A DNA stretch of 64,000 nucleotides from Granulimonas faecalis (GTDB taxonomy: Bacteria; Actinomycetota; Coriobacteriia; Coriobacteriales; Atopobiaceae), in contig NZ_BQKC01000002.1 of assembly GCF_022834715.1 (NCBI RefSeq), positions 62,001-126,000 on the forward strand, given 5' to 3'. This document shows, in pieces, positions 8,551 to 35,796 of the stretch. The notes under the pieces are model-generated. The model saw only the letters and a program-made list of their open reading frames with translations, had not been told where the DNA came from and searched no databases. The translations under genes were made by a program, and so were the position numbers. How positions within the stretch are numbered: the stretch's first letter is position 1; each line of letters opens with the position of its first letter.

Positions 8551-8651
8551 TTGTCCCGCAAGATGCGTCTTTGGTATGATTCGATATGGTTTTCCTTGGG
8601 GTCGGGCCACAGGATGTCGTGGGGCAGGTGGGCTCGGGCACGACCTTTGGG
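8551..8651 (+). promoter_or_regulatory. Leader of CRISPR array 1
   Basis: About 100 bases before the first repeat that are closely similar to 10220-10323 ahead of array 2 (shared runs such as agatgcgtctttggtatgat and gggctcgggcacgacctttg). A promoter TTGTCC (8551-8556), 18 bases, TATGAT (8575-8580) can be read, which would transcribe the array rightwards. Confidence 0.75.
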
Positions 8652-9149
8652 GTCGCACCCCGCAGGGGTGCGTGTATTGAAACTGCAGTGAGACCGCCCG
8701 CCACAAGGTCGTTGAAAGTCGCACCCCGCAGGGGTGCGTGTATTGAAACCTTTGCAACAACGGACGTTGAGAACAAAACGATCGGTCGCACCCCGCAGGG
8801 GTGCGTGTATTGAAACCGAAAGGGTGCCGTCGGCCCCGCGCAGGACCTCCGTCGCACCCCGCAGGGGTGCGTGTATTGAAACATCAGCACCGATTCCGGC
8901 GTCCTGCCCTGGTGGGTCGTCGCACCCCGCAGGGGTGCGTGTATTGAAACCGGAGTTGAGGTGCCGCCGAAAAGTCGAATGGACCTCAGTCGCACCCCAC
9001 AGGGGTGCGTGTGTTGAAACACGCGGGGTAGTATGCGGCGAGGCCCACGGCGCCCCGTCTGTCGCACCCCGCAGGGGTGCGTGTGTTGAAACAGCAAATG
9101 GTCCTTAAGCGGTTGCCAAGCGGACGTCGCACCCCGCAGGGGTGCGTGG
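8652..9149 (+). CRISPR. Type I-C CRISPR array 1 (8 repeats, 7 spacers)
   Basis: 32-base repeats start at 8652, 8718, 8785, 8851, 8919, 8989 and 9061, with a truncated eighth at 9126. The repeat begins GTCGCACCCC and ends GTGTATTGAAAC, the classic I-C form with a palindromic stem. Repeats 6 and 7 end GTGTTGAAAC instead, and repeat 6 has one more change (CCAC). Spacers are 34, 35, 34, 36, 38, 40 and 33 bases. The degenerate end repeat marks the distal end, so the leader is on the left. It matches the I-C Cascade genes 24 kb downstream on this element. Confidence 0.95.
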
Positions 9150-9312
9150 CCGTCCCGCCCTACAAACCCACAGGGACGGCCCGAAGGGCCCCACGAGCGT
9201 CTCTCGTGGGGCCCTTCCCCGTCTTCCCGGGGCCGGCGCCCGGAGGCGCCGGGGGCAGGTCCCGTGGAGGAGGGGTGCCGAGGCACTCCTCCCGGGTCTG
9301 CGTCCCGGTGGG
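9126..9312 (+). repeat. Trailer of array 1, copy of 10586-10762
   Basis: From the truncated last repeat onward this stretch is nearly the same as the stretch after array 2: hairpin GGCCGTCCC/GGGACGGCC (9148-9156, 9173-9181), a terminator-like hairpin (15-bp arms 9183-9197 and 9203-9217) and a shared GC-rich tail (ccggggccggcgcccggagg). Similarity stops about where the tRNA gene begins in the second copy. Confidence 0.8.
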
Positions 9313-10219: not shown

Positions 10220-10323
10220 CGATGTCCCGAAAGATGCGTCTTTGGTATGATTATCCATGGTTTCCCTTACGGCCGGGCCACGGGGTATCCTGAAGCAGAT
10301 GGGCTCGGGCACGACCTTTGGGA
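10220..10323 (+). promoter_or_regulatory. Leader of CRISPR array 2
   Basis: A diverged copy of the array 1 leader, with the same TATGAT box (10246-10251) and the same last 20 bases before the repeat except for one extra A next to it. It lies upstream of and divergent from the lipoprotein gene. Confidence 0.7.
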
Positions 10324-10609
10324 GTCGCACCCCTCAGGGGTGCGTGTATTGAAACGATGACCGAAGCTCACGCAAGTACACTCGGTTTGTCGCACCTCGC
10401 AAGGGTGCGTGTGTTGAAACGTTGGTTCTGAGGACTCCGCCGCTGCCGTCAAGGTCGCACCCCGCGGGGGTGCGTGTGTTGAAACCAAAATAAAACATGT
10501 CAAGCGTAAACGGGGTCAGTCGCACCCCGCAGGGGTGCGTGTGTTGAAATTTGACCCGTCAGGCCGCCAACGACCTGATCATCCCGTCGCACACCTCAGG
10601 GGTGCGTGG
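10324..10609 (+). CRISPR. Type I-C CRISPR array 2 (5 repeats, 4 spacers)
   Basis: Repeats start at 10324, 10389, 10454 and 10519, with a truncated fifth at 10586. The repeats are of the same family as array 1 but more mutated: repeat 1 has CCCTCAGGGG in the loop, repeat 2 CCTCGCAAGG, repeat 3 CCCCGCGGGG, and repeat 4 ends in T. Spacers are 33, 33, 33 and 35 bases and none is shared with array 1. The degeneracy suggests an older, less active array. Confidence 0.93.
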
Positions 10610-10762
10610 CCGTCCCACCCCCGCACTCCCACAGGGACGGCCCGGAGGGTCCCCGCGAGTGTCTCTTGCGGGGACCCTCATCTGTCTTCCCGGGGCCGGC
10701 GCCCGGAGGCGCCGGGGGCAGGTCCCGTGGAGGAGGGGTGCCGAGGCGCTCCCCCCGACCCT
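10586..10762 (+). repeat. Trailer of array 2, copy of 9126-9312
   Basis: The second copy of the array trailer, including a terminator-like hairpin (10645-10679). It runs right up to the first base of the tRNA gene, where the two copies stop matching. Confidence 0.8.
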
Positions 10763-10839
10763 GCGCCCGTAGCTCAGCAGGACAGAGCGCGGCCCTCCTA
10801 AGGCCGGCGTCGGCGGTTCGAATCCGTCCGGGCGCACCA
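10763..10839 (+). tRNA. tRNA-Arg (anticodon CCT)
   Basis: Acceptor arms GCGCCCG (10763-10769) and CGGGCGC (10829-10835) pair perfectly and the encoded end is ACCA. The anticodon stem cggcc/ggccg encloses the loop CTCCTAA, giving anticodon CCT. The T-arm contains GGTTCGAATCC. It reads AGG, a codon used very often in this window, so it may support the element's own translation. A tRNA beside a repeated segment can also mark an integration site, but no intact integrase lies next to it. Confidence 0.93.
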
Positions 10840-26476: not shown

Positions 26477-27448
26477 ATGGCTGATGAGAAGCTCGACGCC
26501 ATGAGGGAGGCCCTCGTGGCAAGGCTCCTGGAGGACATGGACGCCCTGGGGGCCAACTGGGTCAGGCCCTGGGTCTCCCAGGCGCCCCAGAACCCCTCCA
26601 CGGGCACGGTCTACCAGGGCCGCAACGCCCTCATCCTCGGCTTCGTGATCCGCTCCGAGGGCTACGGGGACCCGCGCTTCATGACCTTCCGCCAGGCCCA
26701 GAAGATGGGCCTCAAGGTCGCCAAGGGATGCCACGGGTGGCCCGTGGAGCGCTGGGGCGAGGTGTTCTTCCACAAAGAGAAGACCGGCCGGATCCCCCAG
26801 CCCAGGAGCGTCACCGAGCGCGAGCGCTACCGCAGGGACCCCGAGATCGGCAGCAAGGTGCTCCCCATCGGCCACTACACCGTCTTTAACGGCGCGGACA
26901 TCGTAGGGCTCGACCCCTTCTGCGCCCCGGACACCATGGCAGATACCGAGGCCAGAAGGACCCTCGTGGAGGGTTGCCCCTGCAAGCTCAGAATCCTTGC
27001 CACGGACAACGCCTGCTATTTGCCCAAGTTCGACCGCATCGAGATGCCACTCGCCGCCTCCTTCACCGATGAGGGCGCATTCCTTCGCTGCCTCCTCCAC
27101 GAGGAGGTCCACGCCACTGGCGCCGAGGGGCGCCTGAATCGCCCCGGCGTCGTCTCCGGCGAGGGTATGGGGTCTGCGTCCTACGCCTTCGAGGAGCTCG
27201 TGGCGGAGTTCGGCAGCGTGTTTGCCGCGAGCCGTCTCGGCATCGGCCTTGGGGAGCTTGCCGCGGCCGACCTCCAGCGAGACGGCGCCTGGGAGAACCA
27301 CGGTGCCTACCTCAAAGGCTGGCTCCAGGCGCTGTCGCCCGAGGAGCGCCCCCGCTCCCTCATGGCCGCCGCCACTCAGGCGGGACGGGCCGCCGACTGG
27401 CTTTGGGAACACTGCTTCTCCAAGGGCGAGGCAGGAAAATCGGCCTGA
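26477..27448 (+). CDS. ardC: ArdC-like antirestriction protein 1
   Basis: 323 residues, ATG 26477. N-terminal ssDNA-binding ArdC domain (residues 1-135: ANWVRPWVSQAPQNPSTGTV, GHYTVFNGADIVGL), then a zincin-like metallopeptidase domain with LLHEEVHATGAEGR (HExxH about residue 208) and a third ligand region FEELVAEFGSVFAA. ArdC proteins protect incoming plasmid DNA from type I and other restriction enzymes during transfer. The frame is intact, in contrast to its paralogue at 31185. Confidence 0.9.
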   Translation: MADEKLDAMREALVARLLEDMDALGANWVRPWVSQAPQNPSTGTVYQGRNALILGFVIRSEGYGDPRFMTFRQAQKMGLKVAKGCHGWPVERWGEVFFHKEKTGRIPQPRSVTERERYRRDPEIGSKVLPIGHYTVFNGADIVGLDPFCAPDTMADTEARRTLVEGCPCKLRILATDNACYLPKFDRIEMPLAASFTDEGAFLRCLLHEEVHATGAEGRLNRPGVVSGEGMGSASYAFEELVAEFGSVFAASRLGIGLGELAAADLQRDGAWENHGAYLKGWLQALSPEERPRSLMAAATQAGRAADWLWEHCFSKGEAGKSA

Positions 27449-27494: not shown

Positions 27495-27830
27495 ATGGTC
27501 CTCTTGACGACCAAGGTGAAGAACGCCTTCAAGCGCTTCCACCCGGAACTGGCCTGTGTGGACCTCAAGAACACATCCGTGAACGGGGCAAAAAGAGGCT
27601 GATCCGGCTTTGTCACCGACGGCAACGGTTGGGTTTATCTGAACGCGAATGTGTCGTCTTTCGACGGAAAGGACGAAGTGGCCCTGTACCGCGGCTGTGA
27701 CGGCCCTTCGGATTTCCGCGGAAAGACAAACCTGTACTGTAAACGAGCCCCCGATGTCCTGGCTGAAGCGGTGGCCAAAGAACTGCGAAGGATGGCCGCC
27801 CGATGCAACCGCGTCTCTTCGCAGTCTTAG
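27495..27830 (+). pseudogene. Small gene interrupted by an in-frame TGA
   Basis: From ATG 27495 the frame reads MVLLTTKVKNAFKRFHPELA ... GAKRG, then TGA (27600-27602), then continues in the same frame with clear protein character (SGFVTDGNGWVYLNANVSSF ... LAEAVAKELRRMAARC) to a TAG at 27828-27830. Both halves have the less GC-rich codon use of this patch. TGA is used as a normal stop elsewhere in the window, so a nonsense mutation is more likely than recoding. Family unknown. Confidence 0.6.
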
Positions 27831-27999
27831 AGGTGCTTCGAAACGCCGACGACAGGAAAAGAGGGAACTTCGTCACGTTCCGCAGGGACGTGTGGATTGA
27901 AACCCCTACAAGAACGAGACCACTGTCTGCACCTGGGAGGAGCTCTCGGAACACGTCCGGGAGACCATGCTCCGGGACGACCTCGAGCCAAACTCCTGA
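27803..27999 (+). pseudogene. Possible second small gene with a frameshift inside the solitary repeat
   Basis: ATG 27803 opens a frame ending RKRGNFVTFRRDVWIE near 27899. A different frame from 27901 continues NPYKNETTVCTWEELSEHV to a TGA at 27997. Adding one A in gaaac would join them into a 65-residue protein. The junction lies exactly inside the CRISPR-like repeat at 27872-27903. Either a small gene was broken, or the repeat's resemblance is partly due to coding sequence. Confidence 0.4.
27872..27903 (+). repeat. Solitary type I-C-like CRISPR repeat
   Basis: Exactly 32 bases, starting GTCACGTTCC and ending GTGTGGATTGAAAC. It matches the array repeats at 24 of 32 positions, including the whole loop and the last eight bases. 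Differences at positions 4/20, 6/18 and 7/17 are paired and keep the stem intact; position 8 becomes a G-U pair. No second repeat lies within 200 bases. It could be a single-repeat guide RNA, an RNA anti-CRISPR, or chance within coding sequence. Confidence 0.55.
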
Positions 28000-28038
28000 A
28001 CCGCAACTTTCAAAAACCTAAGGAAGAGGGAGGTGGCC

Positions 28039-28740
28039 ATGGCCACCGTGCTCAGCCATGACCTCGCTCGCGCCATGGGGGAGATTCGCCCCGACATCGT
28101 GGCGGGAAACCTTGCCGACACCTACCGGGGCGACGATGCCCGGGGCTGCTCCGGGCTCCTCACCGACAGGGTGAGCTGGGTCTTCGTGGATACCGTGCCC
28201 GAGGACGCCCAAGGTGCCTTCGCCGACGCCTACGGCCCCGTCGCCGTGTGCCACCGGGTGGCGGGACCCGATGACCCGACCCCGAAGGGCCCGGACACCT
28301 TCTGCCGGGTGACGCCGGAGGCCATCGCCCGAGCCGCCTCGGACCTCATCGACGACGGGACCCGGGCCACGGCCGTGAACCTCGCCGTCTCCTACCTCGG
28401 GCGCCGTGGCTACCGCGTCCTGGAACGCGACTGGGTGTGTGCCGCCGGCACCGTCGACATCGTGGCCGTAGACCCCGACGGCGCCCTCGTCCTTATGTCG
28501 ATACGCCACCGGGTGGCCCCGGGGGCCACAGACCATGAGCAGCTGGGGACCGTCGCCGTGGAGGCCGAGGAGCGCCGTGCCATGCGCAAGTGCTGCCTCC
28601 ATCGCCTCGTGGAGGAGCGCGAAGGCGGCGACCAACCCTGGGAGTCCACCCGCTTCGACGTCCTGGGACTCACCTTCACGGGCGGCCCCGACGTGCGCCT
28701 GCGCCATCTCGTCGGCGCGGTGTCCTGGGACTCCGACTGA
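28039..28740 (+). CDS. YraN-like (UPF0102) protein lacking the usual ExK
   Basis: 233 residues, ATG 28039 with gggagg upstream. The C-terminal half follows the YraN pattern: ATAVNLAVSYLGRRGYRVLE, then GTVDIVAVDPDGALVLM. In YraN the following strand carries E-x-K (VEVKxR); here it reads MSIRHRV, so the catalytic Glu and Lys are replaced. The N-terminal 100 residues are unrelated to YraN. The protein may bind rather than cut DNA. It lies within the antirestriction island. Confidence 0.65.
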   Translation: MATVLSHDLARAMGEIRPDIVAGNLADTYRGDDARGCSGLLTDRVSWVFVDTVPEDAQGAFADAYGPVAVCHRVAGPDDPTPKGPDTFCRVTPEAIARAASDLIDDGTRATAVNLAVSYLGRRGYRVLERDWVCAAGTVDIVAVDPDGALVLMSIRHRVAPGATDHEQLGTVAVEAEERRAMRKCCLHRLVEEREGGDQPWESTRFDVLGLTFTGGPDVRLRHLVGAVSWDSD

Positions 28741-29910: not shown

Positions 29911-30519
29911 ATGGCCGTCTTCAAGTACGTCGAGGAGGGTTTCGTCTGCTACCTCTTCTGCGACCGCCCCGAGGTGAACTCCCCCGAGGCGTTCCGCGGC
30001 CTCTGCCGCGAGGTCTTCGCGAAGGCCTGCCCGGTGACCGTCGGGACCACCTTCGGGGTCGGCCTCCTGACAGCCCTCACCGACGACCCCGCGGAGAACC
30101 TCGCGAGGTTCGCGGGGATCGACGGCGGGGACCGCGAGGACTTCCTCGGGGAGTACCCCGAGAGGGTCCGAGAGGCCCTTAGGCAGGCGGGGGTCTCCCT
30201 CGAGAACCTCGGCTATTACTACCACCCCGACGAGGTGGACGAGGCCGCGGCCGCAGAGCGAGACCGCTTCTCCGAGGTCCACAGGGACGCCGTCGTGGTC
30301 GAGGACTTCGACCTCACGGACCTCCGCCGGTGCCCATTCTGCGGGGCCCCCGCGAGGGTCTACAGAGACCGTGACAGCGTCCTTGGGGGCATCACGGTGG
30401 CCGTGGAGTGCTCCTACGACATGTGCGCGGCCCGGATAGGGCTGCTCACCACGGAGGCCGGGGTGGACGTCGCCGTGACCGACGTGGTGAGCGCCTGGAA
30501 CCGCAGGGCGGGGGAGTGA
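29911..30519 (+). CDS. Lar-like restriction alleviation protein A with extra N-terminal domain
   Basis: 202 residues, ATG 29911 with aaaggaga upstream. The last 65 residues match the Lar family: DLTDLRRCPFCGAPARVYRD, a second cysteine pair in CSYDMCAA, and DVVSAWNRRAG. Lar-type proteins alleviate type I restriction, in known cases by favouring host methylation. The first 130 residues (CREVFAKACPVTVGTTFGVG, EYPERVREALRQAGVS) are shared with the next gene and are not part of classical Lar. Confidence 0.75.
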   Translation: MAVFKYVEEGFVCYLFCDRPEVNSPEAFRGLCREVFAKACPVTVGTTFGVGLLTALTDDPAENLARFAGIDGGDREDFLGEYPERVREALRQAGVSLENLGYYYHPDEVDEAAAAERDRFSEVHRDAVVVEDFDLTDLRRCPFCGAPARVYRDRDSVLGGITVAVECSYDMCAARIGLLTTEAGVDVAVTDVVSAWNRRAGE

Positions 30520-30521
30520 CC

Positions 30522-31142
30522 ATGACAACGTTTCGCTACACGAGGTCGGGATATGAGGCGTACTTCCTGGTCGAGGGCCGGCCGGTCACGACCGCATCGG
30601 ACTTCCGCGAACTCTGCCGCGAGGTCTACTCCCGGGCGTGCCCGGTGACGGTGGGCACCGTCTTCTCCGTGGGCCTCGCCCCGGCCCTCGTGGGCGAGGC
30701 CGCCGAGACCCTGGCCGAGCGGGTATGGCCCGACGACGAGGACGCCCAGAAGGACTTCATGGACCTCTACCCGGCCCGGGTGGCCGAGGCCCTCGCCCAG
30801 GAGGGGGTGAGGGTCACCTGCCTCGGATGGATGGGCCCTGTCGGCCCCTTCGAGGAGGACCTGCCGTTCCTGGACCGGATGCCTCCCGAGCCCACGGTCA
30901 CCACCGTCGAGGACTTCGAGCTCACCGACCTCGCCCCCTGCGGTTTCTGCCACTGCGACGCCCGGGTCGAGGAGACCTACGACCCGGATCTCGAGAGGAC
31001 CCGCATCGACGTGGCCTGCGCCAACGACGAGTGCGGGGCGCAGGTCACCGTCACGACGCCCCAGGACTGCCCCTACGACGTGGAGATGTCCGCCAGGGAG
31101 CAGGCCGTGGATGCCTGGAACCAGTGGCAGGGGAGGGGCTGA
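30522..31142 (+). CDS. Lar-like restriction alleviation protein B (tandem paralogue)
   Basis: 206 residues, ATG 30522, two bases after the previous stop. Same two-part build: N-terminal domain (CREVYSRACPVTVGTVFSVG, LYPARVAEALAQEGVR) and C-terminal zinc ribbon (LTDLAPCGFCHCDAR, CANDECGA, QAVDAWNQWQG). The pair arose by tandem duplication and has diverged strongly, so each copy may counter a different host system. Followed 42 bases later by ardC2. Confidence 0.75.
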   Translation: MTTFRYTRSGYEAYFLVEGRPVTTASDFRELCREVYSRACPVTVGTVFSVGLAPALVGEAAETLAERVWPDDEDAQKDFMDLYPARVAEALAQEGVRVTCLGWMGPVGPFEEDLPFLDRMPPEPTVTTVEDFELTDLAPCGFCHCDARVEETYDPDLERTRIDVACANDECGAQVTVTTPQDCPYDVEMSAREQAVDAWNQWQGRG

Positions 31143-31184
31143 CCCCCGCACCGACCATCCCGACAACCCATGAAGGAGGTCCCC

Positions 31185-32172
31185 ATGGCAGACGCCAAGC
31201 TCGACGCCGCCCGCAGGGAGCTCGCGGCCCAGATCGCGGCCGACATCGACGCCCTGGGCGCCAACTGGGTGCGCCCCTGGGTCTCCCAGGCGCCCCGGAA
31301 CCCGCTGTCCGGTACCGTCTACAAGGGGCGCAACGCCCTGCTGCTCACCTACGTTATCCGCAAGCACCGCTTCTCGGACCCCCGGTTCATGACCTTCACC
31401 CAGGCCCGGAAGGCCGGCCTCATGGTCCGCCGCGGCGCCCACGGCTTTCCCGTGGAGCGGTGGCAGGAGGTCTTCTTCCTGAAGGCCGATCCCAAGGAGC
31501 CCGTGGCCCAGCCCAAGGGGGCCCGGGAGAGGGCGGCCATGTGGAAGGATCCCCGCTACGGCACCCGGGTGGTGCCCGTGGGCCACTACACCGTCTTTAA
31601 CGCCGGCGACATCGAGGGCGTCGAGCCGTTCCTTGTGGAGGCGACCCCCGAGAACCCCGAGGTCATGGACCTCCTCGTGGACCACGGCCCGTGCCCCGTG
31701 GACACGGTGGTGAGCAATGGGGCCTTCTACGAGCCGGGCCGCGACCGCATCACGGTGCCCCCCGGCGGCGACCTTCTCCTCCGAGGGGGCGTTCTTCCGG
31801 ACGCTGCTCCACGAGGAGTGCCACGCCACCGGGGCCGAGGGCCGCCTCGGTCGCCCCGCCGTGTGCGAACGGGTCAAGGTGACTTACGAAGACATCGCCC
31901 GGGAGGAGCTCGTGGCGGAGCTCGGCAGCGTGTTCGCGGCCAGCAGGCTCTCAATCGACCTTTCCGAGCTCACCGCGGCGGACCTGGCCGAAGGGGGCCG
32001 GTGGGCGGAGCACGGGGCCTACCTCAAGGGGTGGCTTGCCGCCTTCGACGAGGGCGACCGCGCCGACGCCCTCATGACCGCCGCCACGGCGGCGGGCAGG
32101 GCCTCGGACTGGCTCTTCGACCACTGCTTCTCCGAGGCGGGAAACGGGGGCGCCGAGGCGGGGGCCGCCTGA
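31185..32172 (+). pseudogene. ArdC-like antirestriction protein 2, broken by a one-base frameshift
   Basis: ATG 31185 behind gaaggagg. The ArdC ssDNA-binding half (ANWVRPWVSQAPRNPLSGTV, GHYTVFNAGDIEGVEPF) is followed at a run of six C (31758-31763) by a shift: the metallopeptidase half (AATFSSEGAFFRTLLHEECH, HExxH intact, EELVAELGSVFAA) continues one base off to the TGA at 32170-32172. Five C would restore a protein of about 328 residues collinear with ArdC1. Cause unresolved: assembly error, mutation or slippage. Confidence 0.8.
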
Positions 32173-32186
32173 AGGGGAGGGAAGCG

Positions 32187-32444
32187 TTGAGATACTACGT
32201 CAACTACCGCGAGTCCGATGAGAAAGGCGAGCTCTGGAGGAACACGTGGCACCGGGCCCTGAAGACCCGCCGGGGCACCGAGGCGTGGCTCAAGCGCCAC
32301 GGTTACGTGGCCACCGACGACCCGAACACCTGGCACGGCACGGAGTGGCCGTACACCAACGATGCCACCGTGTACGCCTGGGACGAGCTCCCCGACCACG
32401 TCAAGGACCTCATGGCCCGCGAGGACCTGGGTCCCGACTCATGA
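32187..32444 (+). CDS. Hypothetical protein (85 aa)
   Basis: TTG at 32187 with ggggaggg upstream, 14 bases after ardC2. The product starts RYYVNYRESDEKGELWRN and is tryptophan/histidine-rich (LKRHGYVATDDPNTWHGTEW). It closes the antirestriction gene run just before the cas promoter. No family recognised; by position an antirestriction or transfer accessory protein. Confidence 0.6.
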   Translation: MRYYVNYRESDEKGELWRNTWHRALKTRRGTEAWLKRHGYVATDDPNTWHGTEWPYTNDATVYAWDELPDHVKDLMAREDLGPDS

Positions 32445-32522: not shown

Positions 32523-33182
32523 GTGGCCCAAGGTTTCATGGTCCGTCTCAGGGGCCCCATGGCCCTGTTCACCCGACCGGAGTTCAAGGTCGAGCGCTAC
32601 AGCTACGACGTCCCCACGCCGAGCGCCCTGGCCGGCGCCCTGGCCTCCATCTACCTCCACCCCGGCATCGAGTGGCAGGTGGAGCGCTACTGGGTCCTGA
32701 ACGAGATACGCCGCCAGTCCGTGGCGGTGAAGGAGGTCTCCTCCAAGGCGAGCTCCGCGAAGGTGCTCCAGGCGGCCAAGGGCAAAGGCCCCATGCCCAG
32801 AGTGGGGGTGGGGGAGGCCCGCCAGATCCGGTGCACGTCGCGCCTCGTGGACGTCGACTACGTGGTCCAGTGCCGCTTCTCCATCACGGACGGCACCGAC
32901 TCCAGGGCCAAGCGCGCCAAGATCGCGTCCATCGTCGATAGGCGCCTCCGGCGCGGCCAGTGCTACCAGCAGCCCTACCTCGGCGTGCGGGAGCACCCCT
33001 GCTCCTTCTCGGCCTGGGAAGGGGGCGTGCCCGAGGGCCACTACTCCCAGTGCGGCCCCGTGGACCTCGGCCTCGTGTTCTGCGGCATGGACCGCACGGA
33101 CCCCGCCGTGGACCGTCCCCGGTTCTTCCGCGCGGTCATGGACCGCGGGTGCGTCGAGGTGGCTGGAAGGGAGGTGGTCTAG
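32523..33182 (+). CDS. cas5c: Cas5c (Cas5d), type I-C crRNA-processing protein
   Basis: 219 residues, the usual size. N-terminal RAMP strand with FMVRLRGPMALFTRPEFKVE and SYDVPTPSALAGALASIYLHP, characteristic of I-C Cas5, and a late glycine-rich YLGVREHPCSF. In type I-C this protein replaces Cas6: it cuts the precursor RNA at the base of the repeat stem and stays on the 5' handle of the guide. The repeats in arrays 1 and 2 have the matching stem and ATTGAAAC handle. First gene of the operon; cas3, which normally precedes it, is absent. Confidence 0.95.
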   Translation: MAQGFMVRLRGPMALFTRPEFKVERYSYDVPTPSALAGALASIYLHPGIEWQVERYWVLNEIRRQSVAVKEVSSKASSAKVLQAAKGKGPMPRVGVGEARQIRCTSRLVDVDYVVQCRFSITDGTDSRAKRAKIASIVDRRLRRGQCYQQPYLGVREHPCSFSAWEGGVPEGHYSQCGPVDLGLVFCGMDRTDPAVDRPRFFRAVMDRGCVEVAGREVV

Positions 33183-34838
33183 GTGCTCCTGGAAGACCTG
33201 GTGAGGCTCCACGGGGAGCTCGTCTCCCGCGGGGCCGCCGTGGCCCCCGCCGGCATGGCGTGGCGGAAGGTCCGCGGGCGCGTCGCCATCGACCCCGCAG
33301 GAAGGCTCCTGGGGATCCTTCCCGGCGACTACTCCGGGGACGAACCCGCGGAGACCCTGGCGCCGGCGCCCCCGGTGAGGTCCGCCAACATCGCCGCGGC
33401 CCTGCTCTGCGACACGGCCGCCTACCTCCTCGGCTTCTCGCCCAAGGGCGACGCCCGGGCCGCCGAGAAGTTCGAGGCGTCCCGGAGGCTCCATCGCGAG
33501 GCCCTCGAGGGCGTGGCCGAGGCGGCGCCCCTGCTGGCGTTTCTCGACTCCTGGGACCCCGCCCGGGCGCCGTCCGTGACGGCCGTCGCCGAGAGCCCCG
33601 TGGACCTTAACATGGCCCTCCTCGAGTTCTGCCTGGTGGACGCCGACGGCGCCGTCCGCGACCTCCTGGACACGGAGGGCGTCAGAGAGGCCCTGGAGAG
33701 GCGCTCCTCAGAGAGGGGCGGCGGCGCCTACACGGACCTGGTCACAGGCGAGCCCTGCGAGCCCTTAAGGGTGCACCCCAAGGCCCCGGCCCTCGCGGGG
33801 CCCGGGGAGAAGGCGGCGCCGGTCGTGGGCTGCAACATCGAGAGCGCCGAGTCCTGGGGCGCCTCCCAGGGCTACCTGTCGCCCATGGCCCGTCCCACGG
33901 CCGAGCGCTACTCGGCGGCCCTGGACTGGCTCCTGAAGGATGGGTGCCACAGCCTGTGTCTCGGCGAGGCCACCTTCGCCTGGTGGGCCGACGGCGAGGC
34001 CGACGGGACCGTGGCGCCGGCCGTGGCCGACGCCCTCCGGGGCTCGGGGGCGGCCGACGTGGACGCCGACGCCGGGTGCGCGCCCCTCCACATGGCCTGC
34101 CTCTCCTCGAGGTACGCACGGGTGCAGCTCCGCTGGTACGAAACCGTCACCTGGGAAGACGCCAGGGACTCCCTGGGGCGGTGGGAGGGTTGCTTCGGCG
34201 GGAGGGTCCCGTCGGCCTTCTCGATCCTCCGGGCCCTGGAGAGGCCGGGGGAGAAGGCCCCGGCCACCCGCTGCCAGGACGCCGCCTCCCTGGTGGGCGC
34301 CCTGATCATGGGAGGCCCCTGGCCGAGGACCCTGACCCAGAGGGCGGCCGCCATGGCGTCCGCGGGAGACATCGGCCCCACGGTGGCCGGCACCCTGGCG
34401 GCCTCGGCCCTGTCGACACGAAAGGAGTCGGGAATGGAGACCGACGACCTGCTCTGCCCCGCCGACCCCGCCTACCGGGCCGGCTGCATCTTCGCCATCC
34501 TGGAGGGCCTCCAGAAGGCCGCCCAGGGGCGCCTGGCCGCCCCGGTGAGGACCCGCTACATGGCCGGGGCCGCCAAGAGCCCCGTCCGGGTGCTGCCGAC
34601 GCTCGTCGCCACCGCCCAGGCCCACCTGAAGAAGCTCTCCCGGACCAAGCCGGGGCTCGCCGCCTTCTACGAGTCGGCGCTTTCCGAGGCCGTGGCCGCG
34701 GGGCCCGTGCCCCTCACCATGGACGCTGCGGCCTCCTGGCGCTTCTACGTCGGCTACTACCGCCAGCGTGACCAGCTCTACCGCCCCGCCGGCGACGGCG
34801 CCGACCCGGAGGCGGAGGAGGAGGTGCGCGCGGACTAG
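33183..34838 (+). CDS. cas8c: Cas8c (Csd1), large subunit of type I-C Cascade
   Basis: 551 residues from a GTG directly after the cas5 stop. Matches Csd1 in order: GDYSGDEPAETL near residue 50, SANIAAALLCDTAAYLLGFS, GCNIESAESWGASQGYLSPM with AERYSAALDWLL (about 217-255), and the helical C-terminus. Cas8c recognises the PAM and opens the target. The length is slightly below many Csd1 proteins. An internal start gives Cas11c. Confidence 0.93.
   Translation: MLLEDLVRLHGELVSRGAAVAPAGMAWRKVRGRVAIDPAGRLLGILPGDYSGDEPAETLAPAPPVRSANIAAALLCDTAAYLLGFSPKGDARAAEKFEASRRLHREALEGVAEAAPLLAFLDSWDPARAPSVTAVAESPVDLNMALLEFCLVDADGAVRDLLDTEGVREALERRSSERGGGAYTDLVTGEPCEPLRVHPKAPALAGPGEKAAPVVGCNIESAESWGASQGYLSPMARPTAERYSAALDWLLKDGCHSLCLGEATFAWWADGEADGTVAPAVADALRGSGAADVDADAGCAPLHMACLSSRYARVQLRWYETVTWEDARDSLGRWEGCFGGRVPSAFSILRALERPGEKAPATRCQDAASLVGALIMGGPWPRTLTQRAAAMASAGDIGPTVAGTLAASALSTRKESGMETDDLLCPADPAYRAGCIFAILEGLQKAAQGRLAAPVRTRYMAGAAKSPVRVLPTLVATAQAHLKKLSRTKPGLAAFYESALSEAVAAGPVPLTMDAAASWRFYVGYYRQRDQLYRPAGDGADPEAEEEVRAD
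34434..34838 (+). CDS. cas11c: Cas11c, made from an internal start in cas8c
   Basis: Within cas8c and in the same frame, an ATG at 34434 is preceded by aaaggag with 6 bases spacing. It would give 134 residues (starting METDDLLCPADPAYRAGC), all helical, the size of the small subunit known to be produced by internal initiation in type I-C systems. This completes the Cascade set. Assigned from the internal ribosome site and family knowledge. Confidence 0.75.
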   Translation: METDDLLCPADPAYRAGCIFAILEGLQKAAQGRLAAPVRTRYMAGAAKSPVRVLPTLVATAQAHLKKLSRTKPGLAAFYESALSEAVAAGPVPLTMDAAASWRFYVGYYRQRDQLYRPAGDGADPEAEEEVRAD

Positions 34839-34908
34839 GGCCCCACTCCCGCACCGCCCCGAAACGACGGAAGGCCCCACCACACGTTTTCCCCAAGGAG
34901 GACCACCC

Positions 34909-35796
34909 ATGGACAATACCCTGGACCGCCGCATCGAGTTCGTCGCCTACCTCGATGTGGAGCTCGGCAACCCCAACGGCGACCCCGACGCCGGAAACCG
35001 CCCCCGCCAGCTCGACGACGGCCGCGGCATCGTCACCGACGTGTGCCTGAAGCGCAAGGTCCGCGACCGCATCGCCCTGGAGCACAGCGGCGAGGAGGGC
35101 TTCGACCTGTACATCGAGCCCACGGGGACCCTGAACTCCAAGGACGAGCGCGGCTTCGAGGCCGTGCTCGGGGCCGGGGTCGACCTCAAGGGGCTCAGGA
35201 AGAGCGACCCCGACGCGGCCCTGCGGGTCCGCGACGCCATGTGCCGCACCTACTTCGACGTGCGCTGCTTCGGCGCCGTCATGACCACCTTCGCCAAGAA
35301 CAACCTGGCCGGCGGCCAGGTGCGCGGCCCCGTGCAGCTGTCCTTCGCCGTCTCGGCCGACCCGGTGTTTCCCGAGGGGCAGACCCTCACCCGCCAGGCG
35401 GTGACCACGGAGGCCGACCGCGAGAAGAAGACCTCCGAGATGGCCGTCAAGTGGGTCGTACCCTACGGCCTCTACCGCGTCTCGGGCTTCGTCTCCCCGG
35501 CCCGGGCCAGAGACACCGGCTTCACCTGGGAGGACTGGGACGCCTTCGTCGGGGCGTTCCGCCGCATGTTCTGGGAGGACCGCAGCGCGAGCCGCCCCTC
35601 CATGAGGCTCCGCACCCTGACCTGCTTCACGCACCCCAACGCCCTGGGGGTGTGCGCCGCCGAGGCCAACCTGGAGCGCGTCTCGGCGTCCCTCAAGGAG
35701 GGCGTGGACATCCCGACGTCCTTCGGCGACTACGTCGTGGAGGCCGACGGCGAGGGCCTGCCCGAGGGCGTCGAGATGGTCCACGAGGTGCTCTAG
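34909..35796 (+). CDS. cas7c: Cas7c (Csd2), backbone subunit of type I-C Cascade
   Basis: 295 residues, ATG 34909 behind aaggagg, 70 bases after cas8c. The N-terminal signature is unmistakable: VELGNPNGDPDAGNRPR, then DDGRGIVTDVCLKRKVRD. The middle FDVRCFGAVMTTFAKNN and RGPVQLSFA continue the Csd2 pattern. Several copies would coat the guide RNA. The frame is intact. After cas7 a normal locus carries cas4-cas1-cas2; here a secreted nuclease gene follows instead. Confidence 0.95.
   Translation: MDNTLDRRIEFVAYLDVELGNPNGDPDAGNRPRQLDDGRGIVTDVCLKRKVRDRIALEHSGEEGFDLYIEPTGTLNSKDERGFEAVLGAGVDLKGLRKSDPDAALRVRDAMCRTYFDVRCFGAVMTTFAKNNLAGGQVRGPVQLSFAVSADPVFPEGQTLTRQAVTTEADREKKTSEMAVKWVVPYGLYRVSGFVSPARARDTGFTWEDWDAFVGAFRRMFWEDRSASRPSMRLRTLTCFTHPNALGVCAAEANLERVSASLKEGVDIPTSFGDYVVEADGEGLPEGVEMVHEVL

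Follow-up and report, generated by a model that had tools for sequence, protein, structure and literature searches.

A solitary type I-C CRISPR repeat in an antirestriction gene cluster on a probable conjugative plasmid of Granulimonas faecalis, a candidate RNA decoy

RacrIC1 is a single type I-C repeat that is co-transcribed with acrIC5 and inhibits I-C interference (PMC10651486). The SRUFinder criteria for solitary repeat units (SRUs) are the absence of a repeat in the 100-bp flanks, an identity of at least 90% to a known repeat, and an intergenic location (PMC10651486). The host of 83% of the prophage SRUs has a CRISPR-Cas system of the matching subtype, while the 90 SRUs known from plasmids have no significant link with acr genes (PMC10651486). 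The element described here lies in a window of 64,000 nucleotides of a Granulimonas faecalis contig, to which all positions refer unless otherwise indicated:

27872..27903, + strand: solitary type I-C CRISPR repeat, identified by covariance model, null model and fold

Like the SRUs, this unit has no full or partial repeat within 100 bp on either side (PMC10651486), and the plasmid-type genes of the contig place it on a mobile element. Its highest identity, 82% (27/33), was to the closest repeat collected here from the class and stays below the 90% required by SRUFinder (PMC10651486); identity to the plasmid's own array was 75%. Having the solitude of an SRU and lacking the identity, the unit is regarded as a Racr candidate and not as a member. 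With respect to a matching host system, the sole I-C genes found in the host were the plasmid's own cas5-8-7, and relatives have I-C systems.

The repeat at 27872-27903

The + strand sequence of the unit is GTCACGTTCCGCAGGGACGTGTGGATTGAAAC. It begins with GTC, followed by a 7-bp stem with a closing C-G pair, a GCA loop and the handle GTGGATTGAAAC. As had been noticed in a sequence-only reading of the window, the unit shares with the array repeats (8652 and others) the length of 32 nt, the GCA loop and the ATTGAAAC end. Compared with the main array repeat there are eight differences, seven in the stem and one in the handle. The same reading had pointed to three paired substitutions that preserve the stem, and these were located at pairs 4-20 (GC in the array repeat, AU in the unit), 6-18 (AU to GC) and 7-17 (CG to UA); a fourth stem difference converts CG to a UG wobble. 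The eighth difference, T to G, changes the GTGT of the array handle to the GTGG of most I-C repeats. The complete handle of the unit is the usual I-C handle in related genomes, whereas the plasmid's own arrays have GTGTATTGAAAC. Identical 8-bp hairpins were predicted for the unit RNA and the array-repeat RNA, at -10.3 and -15.3 kcal/mol, respectively.

Every position of the contig was scored for 15 flank bases and 7 stem pairs, with a maximum of 22. The unit scored 22/22; elsewhere the masked 147 kb contig did not exceed 17, and in a simulation of 160 million positions with the third-order composition of the window no score was above 19. A covariance model of 16 I-C repeats from the plasmid and related genomes, from which the unit was left out, assigned it 37.4 bits (E = 3.1e-7 over 146,863 bases) with all six model pairs kept. 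The best match outside the arrays and the unit reached 12.3 bits. These results strongly supported the identification of 27872-27903 as a genuine type I-C CRISPR repeat, beyond chance.

The meaning of the paired changes is another matter. They had been taken to suggest selection for RNA structure, an argument that proved weak when 12 I-C repeats from the plasmid and related genomes were aligned: both partners vary in five of the seven stem pairs, and 94% of the helix is paired. Throughout type I-C, the stem sequence turns over while pairing persists. Since paired stem changes are common in I-C repeats, any repeat of another I-C lineage would look 'compensated' when compared with the local arrays, and because such changes are the rule, the paired differences are by themselves no proof of selection on the unit. 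We read the unit as a member or descendant of an I-C repeat lineage other than that of the local arrays.

A pattern scan of the whole genome detected 11 full array repeats and the unit, and nothing else. No second repeat was found within 1 kb of the unit, where covariance-model matches were at most 5.6 bits, and the best similarity of the flanks to the repeat (53-56%) was at shuffle level; the unit is alone, as originally described. The distance of 19 kb from the arrays given in that description holds for the first array, but only about 17 kb separate the unit from the array repeat closest to it. Neither a leader-like sequence nor a second degenerate repeat was found near the unit. A potential upstream partner repeat at 27813-27844 (GTC..GAAAC) was dropped (5.6 bits, E=0.89 within 1 kb). 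Two solitary pattern matches in related genomes (G142 and G144) have the flank pattern without a clear hairpin and are what chance yields at that pattern stringency.

For the flanking genes, no relatives were found among phages, plasmids, viral contigs, genome contigs and up to 398 class genomes, the weak matches in class genomes being spurious on reading. Neither the viral contigs nor the 84,980 species genomes searched contained an array with the same or a similar stem, nor did 296 phylum genomes, for which two mismatches were allowed. The absence of such an array from the 84,980 species genomes indicates that the unit was not copied from an array sampled there. Nor did the searches turn up a relative in which a single frame reads through the site and the hairpin is missing.

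Gene remnants within an antirestriction cluster

The genes and remnants around the repeat are the following:

26477..27448, + strand: ArdC-like antirestriction gene (ArdcN + MPTase-PolyVal), upstream of the repeat
27501..27776, + strand: remnant with homology to the N-half of the 28033-28740 gene and interrupted by an in-frame TGA, identified by genome search, local alignment and G+C
27777..27903, + strand: 127 bases that separate two gene remnants and end, 3', in the repeat
27904..27999, + strand: truncated gene tail (PYKNETTVCTWEELSEHVRETMLRDDLEPNS and stop), with its paralogue at the end of the 32166-32444 frame
28033..28740, + strand: UPF0102 / NucS-like nuclease-domain protein, downstream of the repeat
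29911..30519, + strand: Lar-like restriction-alleviation domain protein
30570-31142: second Lar-like protein
31170..32172, + strand: second ArdC copy, split over two frames, with ArdcN in one and MPTase-PolyVal in the other (31717-32172)

The repeat is located 0.4 kb downstream of the ArdC gene, on the same strand, within a + strand ArdC/Lar cluster, and the ArdC and Lar-like neighbours named earlier were confirmed. The frame of the second ArdC copy is split near 31717 by either real decay or an assembly indel. The contig has 146,863 bases and is the second of a 2.23 Mb genome estimated to be 96% complete. It encodes a T4SS coupling protein, a plasmid-type topoisomerase, an actin-like partition protein, two SSBs and an anaerobic ribonucleotide reductase, a gene content that suggests a probable conjugative megaplasmid. 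No overlapping contig ends, a sign of circularity, were found. A TnpB/OrfB-family gene (IS605 type) is present on the same contig at 12728-13960. A CRISPR-associated transposon was considered and rejected; among the scanned contig ORFs there was no TniQ/TnsB-like match, only a sub-threshold TniB match in an AAA protein.

In the genome search the 27501-27776 remnant matched 28057-28341 (E=2.3e-4) with one TGA, and its G+C goes down to 0.54-0.60. No homology was found in 27777-27903 except for the repeat itself. The tail at 27904-27999 matched the end of the 32166-32444 frame (E=1.8e-7, 50% identity), and its nucleotide alignment to this plasmid paralogue starts at 27904, the first base 3' of the repeat. 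A 72-codon ORF runs across the repeat, and there is no intact homologous gene over the site. In the upstream frame, third codon positions at 27831-27890 resemble those of coding sequence (log-odds 6.0, GC3 0.80). The view that the site is a coding sequence with a frameshift, also put forward from the sequence alone, accounts for the 96 bases after the repeat but not for the repeat, inasmuch as the similarity of the upstream frame to the paralogue is not significant (p 0.16-0.25) and the homology starts at 27904. Because the homology begins right after the repeat, the 'frameshift' is best read as the junction of two remnants, the repeat lying on the seam between them. An assembly indel may be an alternative cause of the frame break at this point.

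If the unit were a guide, 27904-27999 would be its 'spacer', that is, 96 bases of homology to a paralogue. Apart from themselves, the bases after the repeat matched nothing significantly in the genome, in phages or in plasmids. The comparison of the 35 bases that follow the repeat (27904-27938) with phages and the host genome, which had been proposed as a check, accordingly yielded no target.

Type I-C genes and arrays of the plasmid

The replicon carries its own type I-C components:

8652..9150, + strand: CRISPR array A, 7 full repeats and a degenerate terminal one
10324..10610, + strand: CRISPR array B, 4 full repeats and a degenerate terminal one
32523..33182, + strand: cas5c; its protein family would be the one to bind the RNA of the repeat
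33183..34838, + strand: cas8c
34903..35796, + strand: cas7c, with no cas4-cas1-cas2 after it

The cas5c-cas8c-cas7c genes (32523-35796), which the sequence-only reading did not mention, are 4.6 kb downstream of the repeat on the same strand and replicon. No cas3, cas4, cas1 or cas2 adjoins them, and the genome search yielded neither Cas1 nor a Cas3 above the curated cut-off, nor any Cas8c besides the plasmid's own. Cas8c matches were found in 46 of 396 class genomes, this one counted; the plasmid Cas8c is about 30% identical to its class relatives. The four related loci in which the genes were read have longer cas operons around cas5c, cas8c and cas7c. The plasmid Cas5c has CRF in place of (A/F)HF, the histidine of the motif, common to eight of nine relatives, being an arginine, and AVKE where relatives have RRNE. 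In work on BhCas5d this histidine is reported to be catalytic. The cleavage activity of the plasmid Cas5c may be lost or altered.

The repeat of arrays A and B is GTCGCACCCCGCAGGGGTGCGTGTATTGAAAC and variants. The array leaders (8552-8651 and 10223-10322) are 84% alike and the stretches downstream of the arrays 89%; this likeness suggests the duplication of a single array-leader unit. A tRNA-Arg at 10763-10836 follows shortly after the end of array B. None of the array spacers matched phages or plasmids. Spacer 5 of array A (8951-8988, 38 nt) has a 38/38 match to the host chromosome (G000:C1:433951-433988, minus strand), within codons 5-17 of an ImmA-like Peptidase_M78 gene that has an XRE regulator immediately upstream. 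The 5' flank of the chromosomal target is CTA, not TTC. Since no Cas3 was found above the cut-off, this self-match may be tolerated or serve repression.

Possible roles and known systems

Our tentative preference, by a narrow margin, is for a Racr-like RNA decoy for Cas5c over the relic of an array. The unit would be transcribed, probably within the ArdC-side transcript, and its RNA would form the I-C hairpin, the handle being intact. This RNA would be bound by the Cas5c of a recipient cell's type I-C system, not by the plasmid's own, and, without a second repeat or a useful spacer, would hold Cas5c (perhaps also Cas7/Cas8) in non-productive complexes. The decoy would in this way help the plasmid to establish, alongside its antirestriction genes of the ArdC and Lar kinds. 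That the unit is transcribed, that its RNA binds Cas5c and inhibits, and that the I-C systems of recipients are the target is what we infer. The repeat is intact, far above chance and solitary; ArdC is 0.4 kb upstream on the shared strand with the ArdC/Lar cluster around; and the handle is that of related genomes instead of the plasmid's. The contig resembles a conjugative plasmid, the class genomes with Cas8c include possible recipients, the unit is not a copy of any array sampled in the species genomes, and RacrIC1 is a precedent as a type I-C inhibitor (PMC10651486). Against the decoy, no promoter-like site was found near the unit, although an own promoter would be unnecessary given that RacrIC1 is co-transcribed with acrIC5 (PMC10651486). 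In addition, no relative of the locus was found that would serve as a measure of conservation, both identity values are under the SRU threshold (PMC10651486), the sole sequenced host lacks a complete I-C system that could be inhibited, and the plasmid's own Cas5c would be loaded too.

The broken gene remnants on both sides likewise count against the decoy and also fit a relic. An I-C array that has since been lost could have left the unit as its last repeat, or recombination could have brought it in; it would now be stranded between two truncated genes and without function, an explanation that we rate only slightly below the decoy. The decayed N-half with its in-frame TGA upstream, the gene tail whose homology starts at the end of the repeat, and the frame break in the second ArdC copy all agree with it, as does the normality of stem divergence between I-C lineages. 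The incomplete I-C system and the two other arrays imply that I-C material has been lost or moved on this replicon. A relic is harder to reconcile with the integrity of all 22 scored positions amid broken neighbouring genes, with the failure to find an array with this stem in species genomes, viral contigs or the relatives searched, and with the lack of a leader-like sequence or second degenerate repeat nearby. A chance likeness in a coding sequence with a one-base frameshift after the repeat is scarcely credible: the upstream frame is coding-like and the frame after the repeat is homologous to a gene tail, but the null model (22 against a maximum of 19) and the covariance model (E of 3e-7 over the contig) ruled it out, the upstream frame has no significant similarity to the paralogue, and the junction falls precisely at the repeat's end.

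A guide or mini-array had also been proposed, and both ideas found little or no support, there being no second repeat and a 'spacer' that is a gene tail matching only itself. In detail, the unit and about 35 following bases would make a crRNA that steers the plasmid's Cas3-less Cas5c-Cas8c-Cas7c for regulation or inter-element competition. Effector genes 4.6 kb away on the shared strand and the lack of Cas3 above the cut-off are compatible with such a guide, and the apparent tolerance of a perfect chromosomal match by one array spacer makes RNA-guided binding without cleavage conceivable here. Nonetheless, nothing would set the 3' end of the crRNA, the putative spacer is a coding tail that runs into paralogue homology and has no other significant match, and the unit differs from the arrays presumably read by the plasmid Cas5c, which makes this role quite improbable. 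A broader variant, in which the Cas3-less I-C complex would be the plasmid's RNA-guided binder and the solitary repeat a private regulator that titrates Cas5c or gives a specialised guide, fits the perfect spacer match at the start of the chromosomal ImmA-like gene and is unlikely, if a little less so.

If the unit is a decoy, it would be a type I-C Racr candidate on a conjugative plasmid, inside an antirestriction island, and would strengthen the view that RNA anti-CRISPRs accompany protein antirestriction genes on plasmids, for which published data are thin (PMC10651486). The full repeat architecture could then persist well below the usual 90% identity, so that units of this sort may escape searches by identity, and more of them would be detected with covariance models. 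As a relic, the unit would be a small record of array turnover on the plasmid.

Among known systems, orphan or incomplete plasmid CRISPR-Cas loci (PMC9071438) resemble the present one in the plasmid-type contig, the arrays and an effector operon without adaptation genes; here, however, there is a single diverged repeat apart from both arrays, and cas3 is missing too. Viral CRISPR mini-arrays (reviewed in PMC11656645) also consist of a repeat with a short downstream sequence on a mobile element. Unlike them, with at least one spacer between two repeats, the unit is one repeat, identical to no host or plasmid array, and is followed by a gene tail with no foreign target. With respect to Racrs and SRUs (PMC10651486), the unit differs in its 82% identity to the closest class repeat collected, and from RacrIC1 in adjoining ArdC and Lar instead of a known acr and in lying between gene remnants on a replicon with I-C cas genes (PMC10651486). 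It is like them, and RacrIC1 above all, in being one full I-C repeat with hairpin and handle and no partner repeat, located on a mobile element with adjoining counter-defence genes, on the strand of the gene upstream (PMC10651486).
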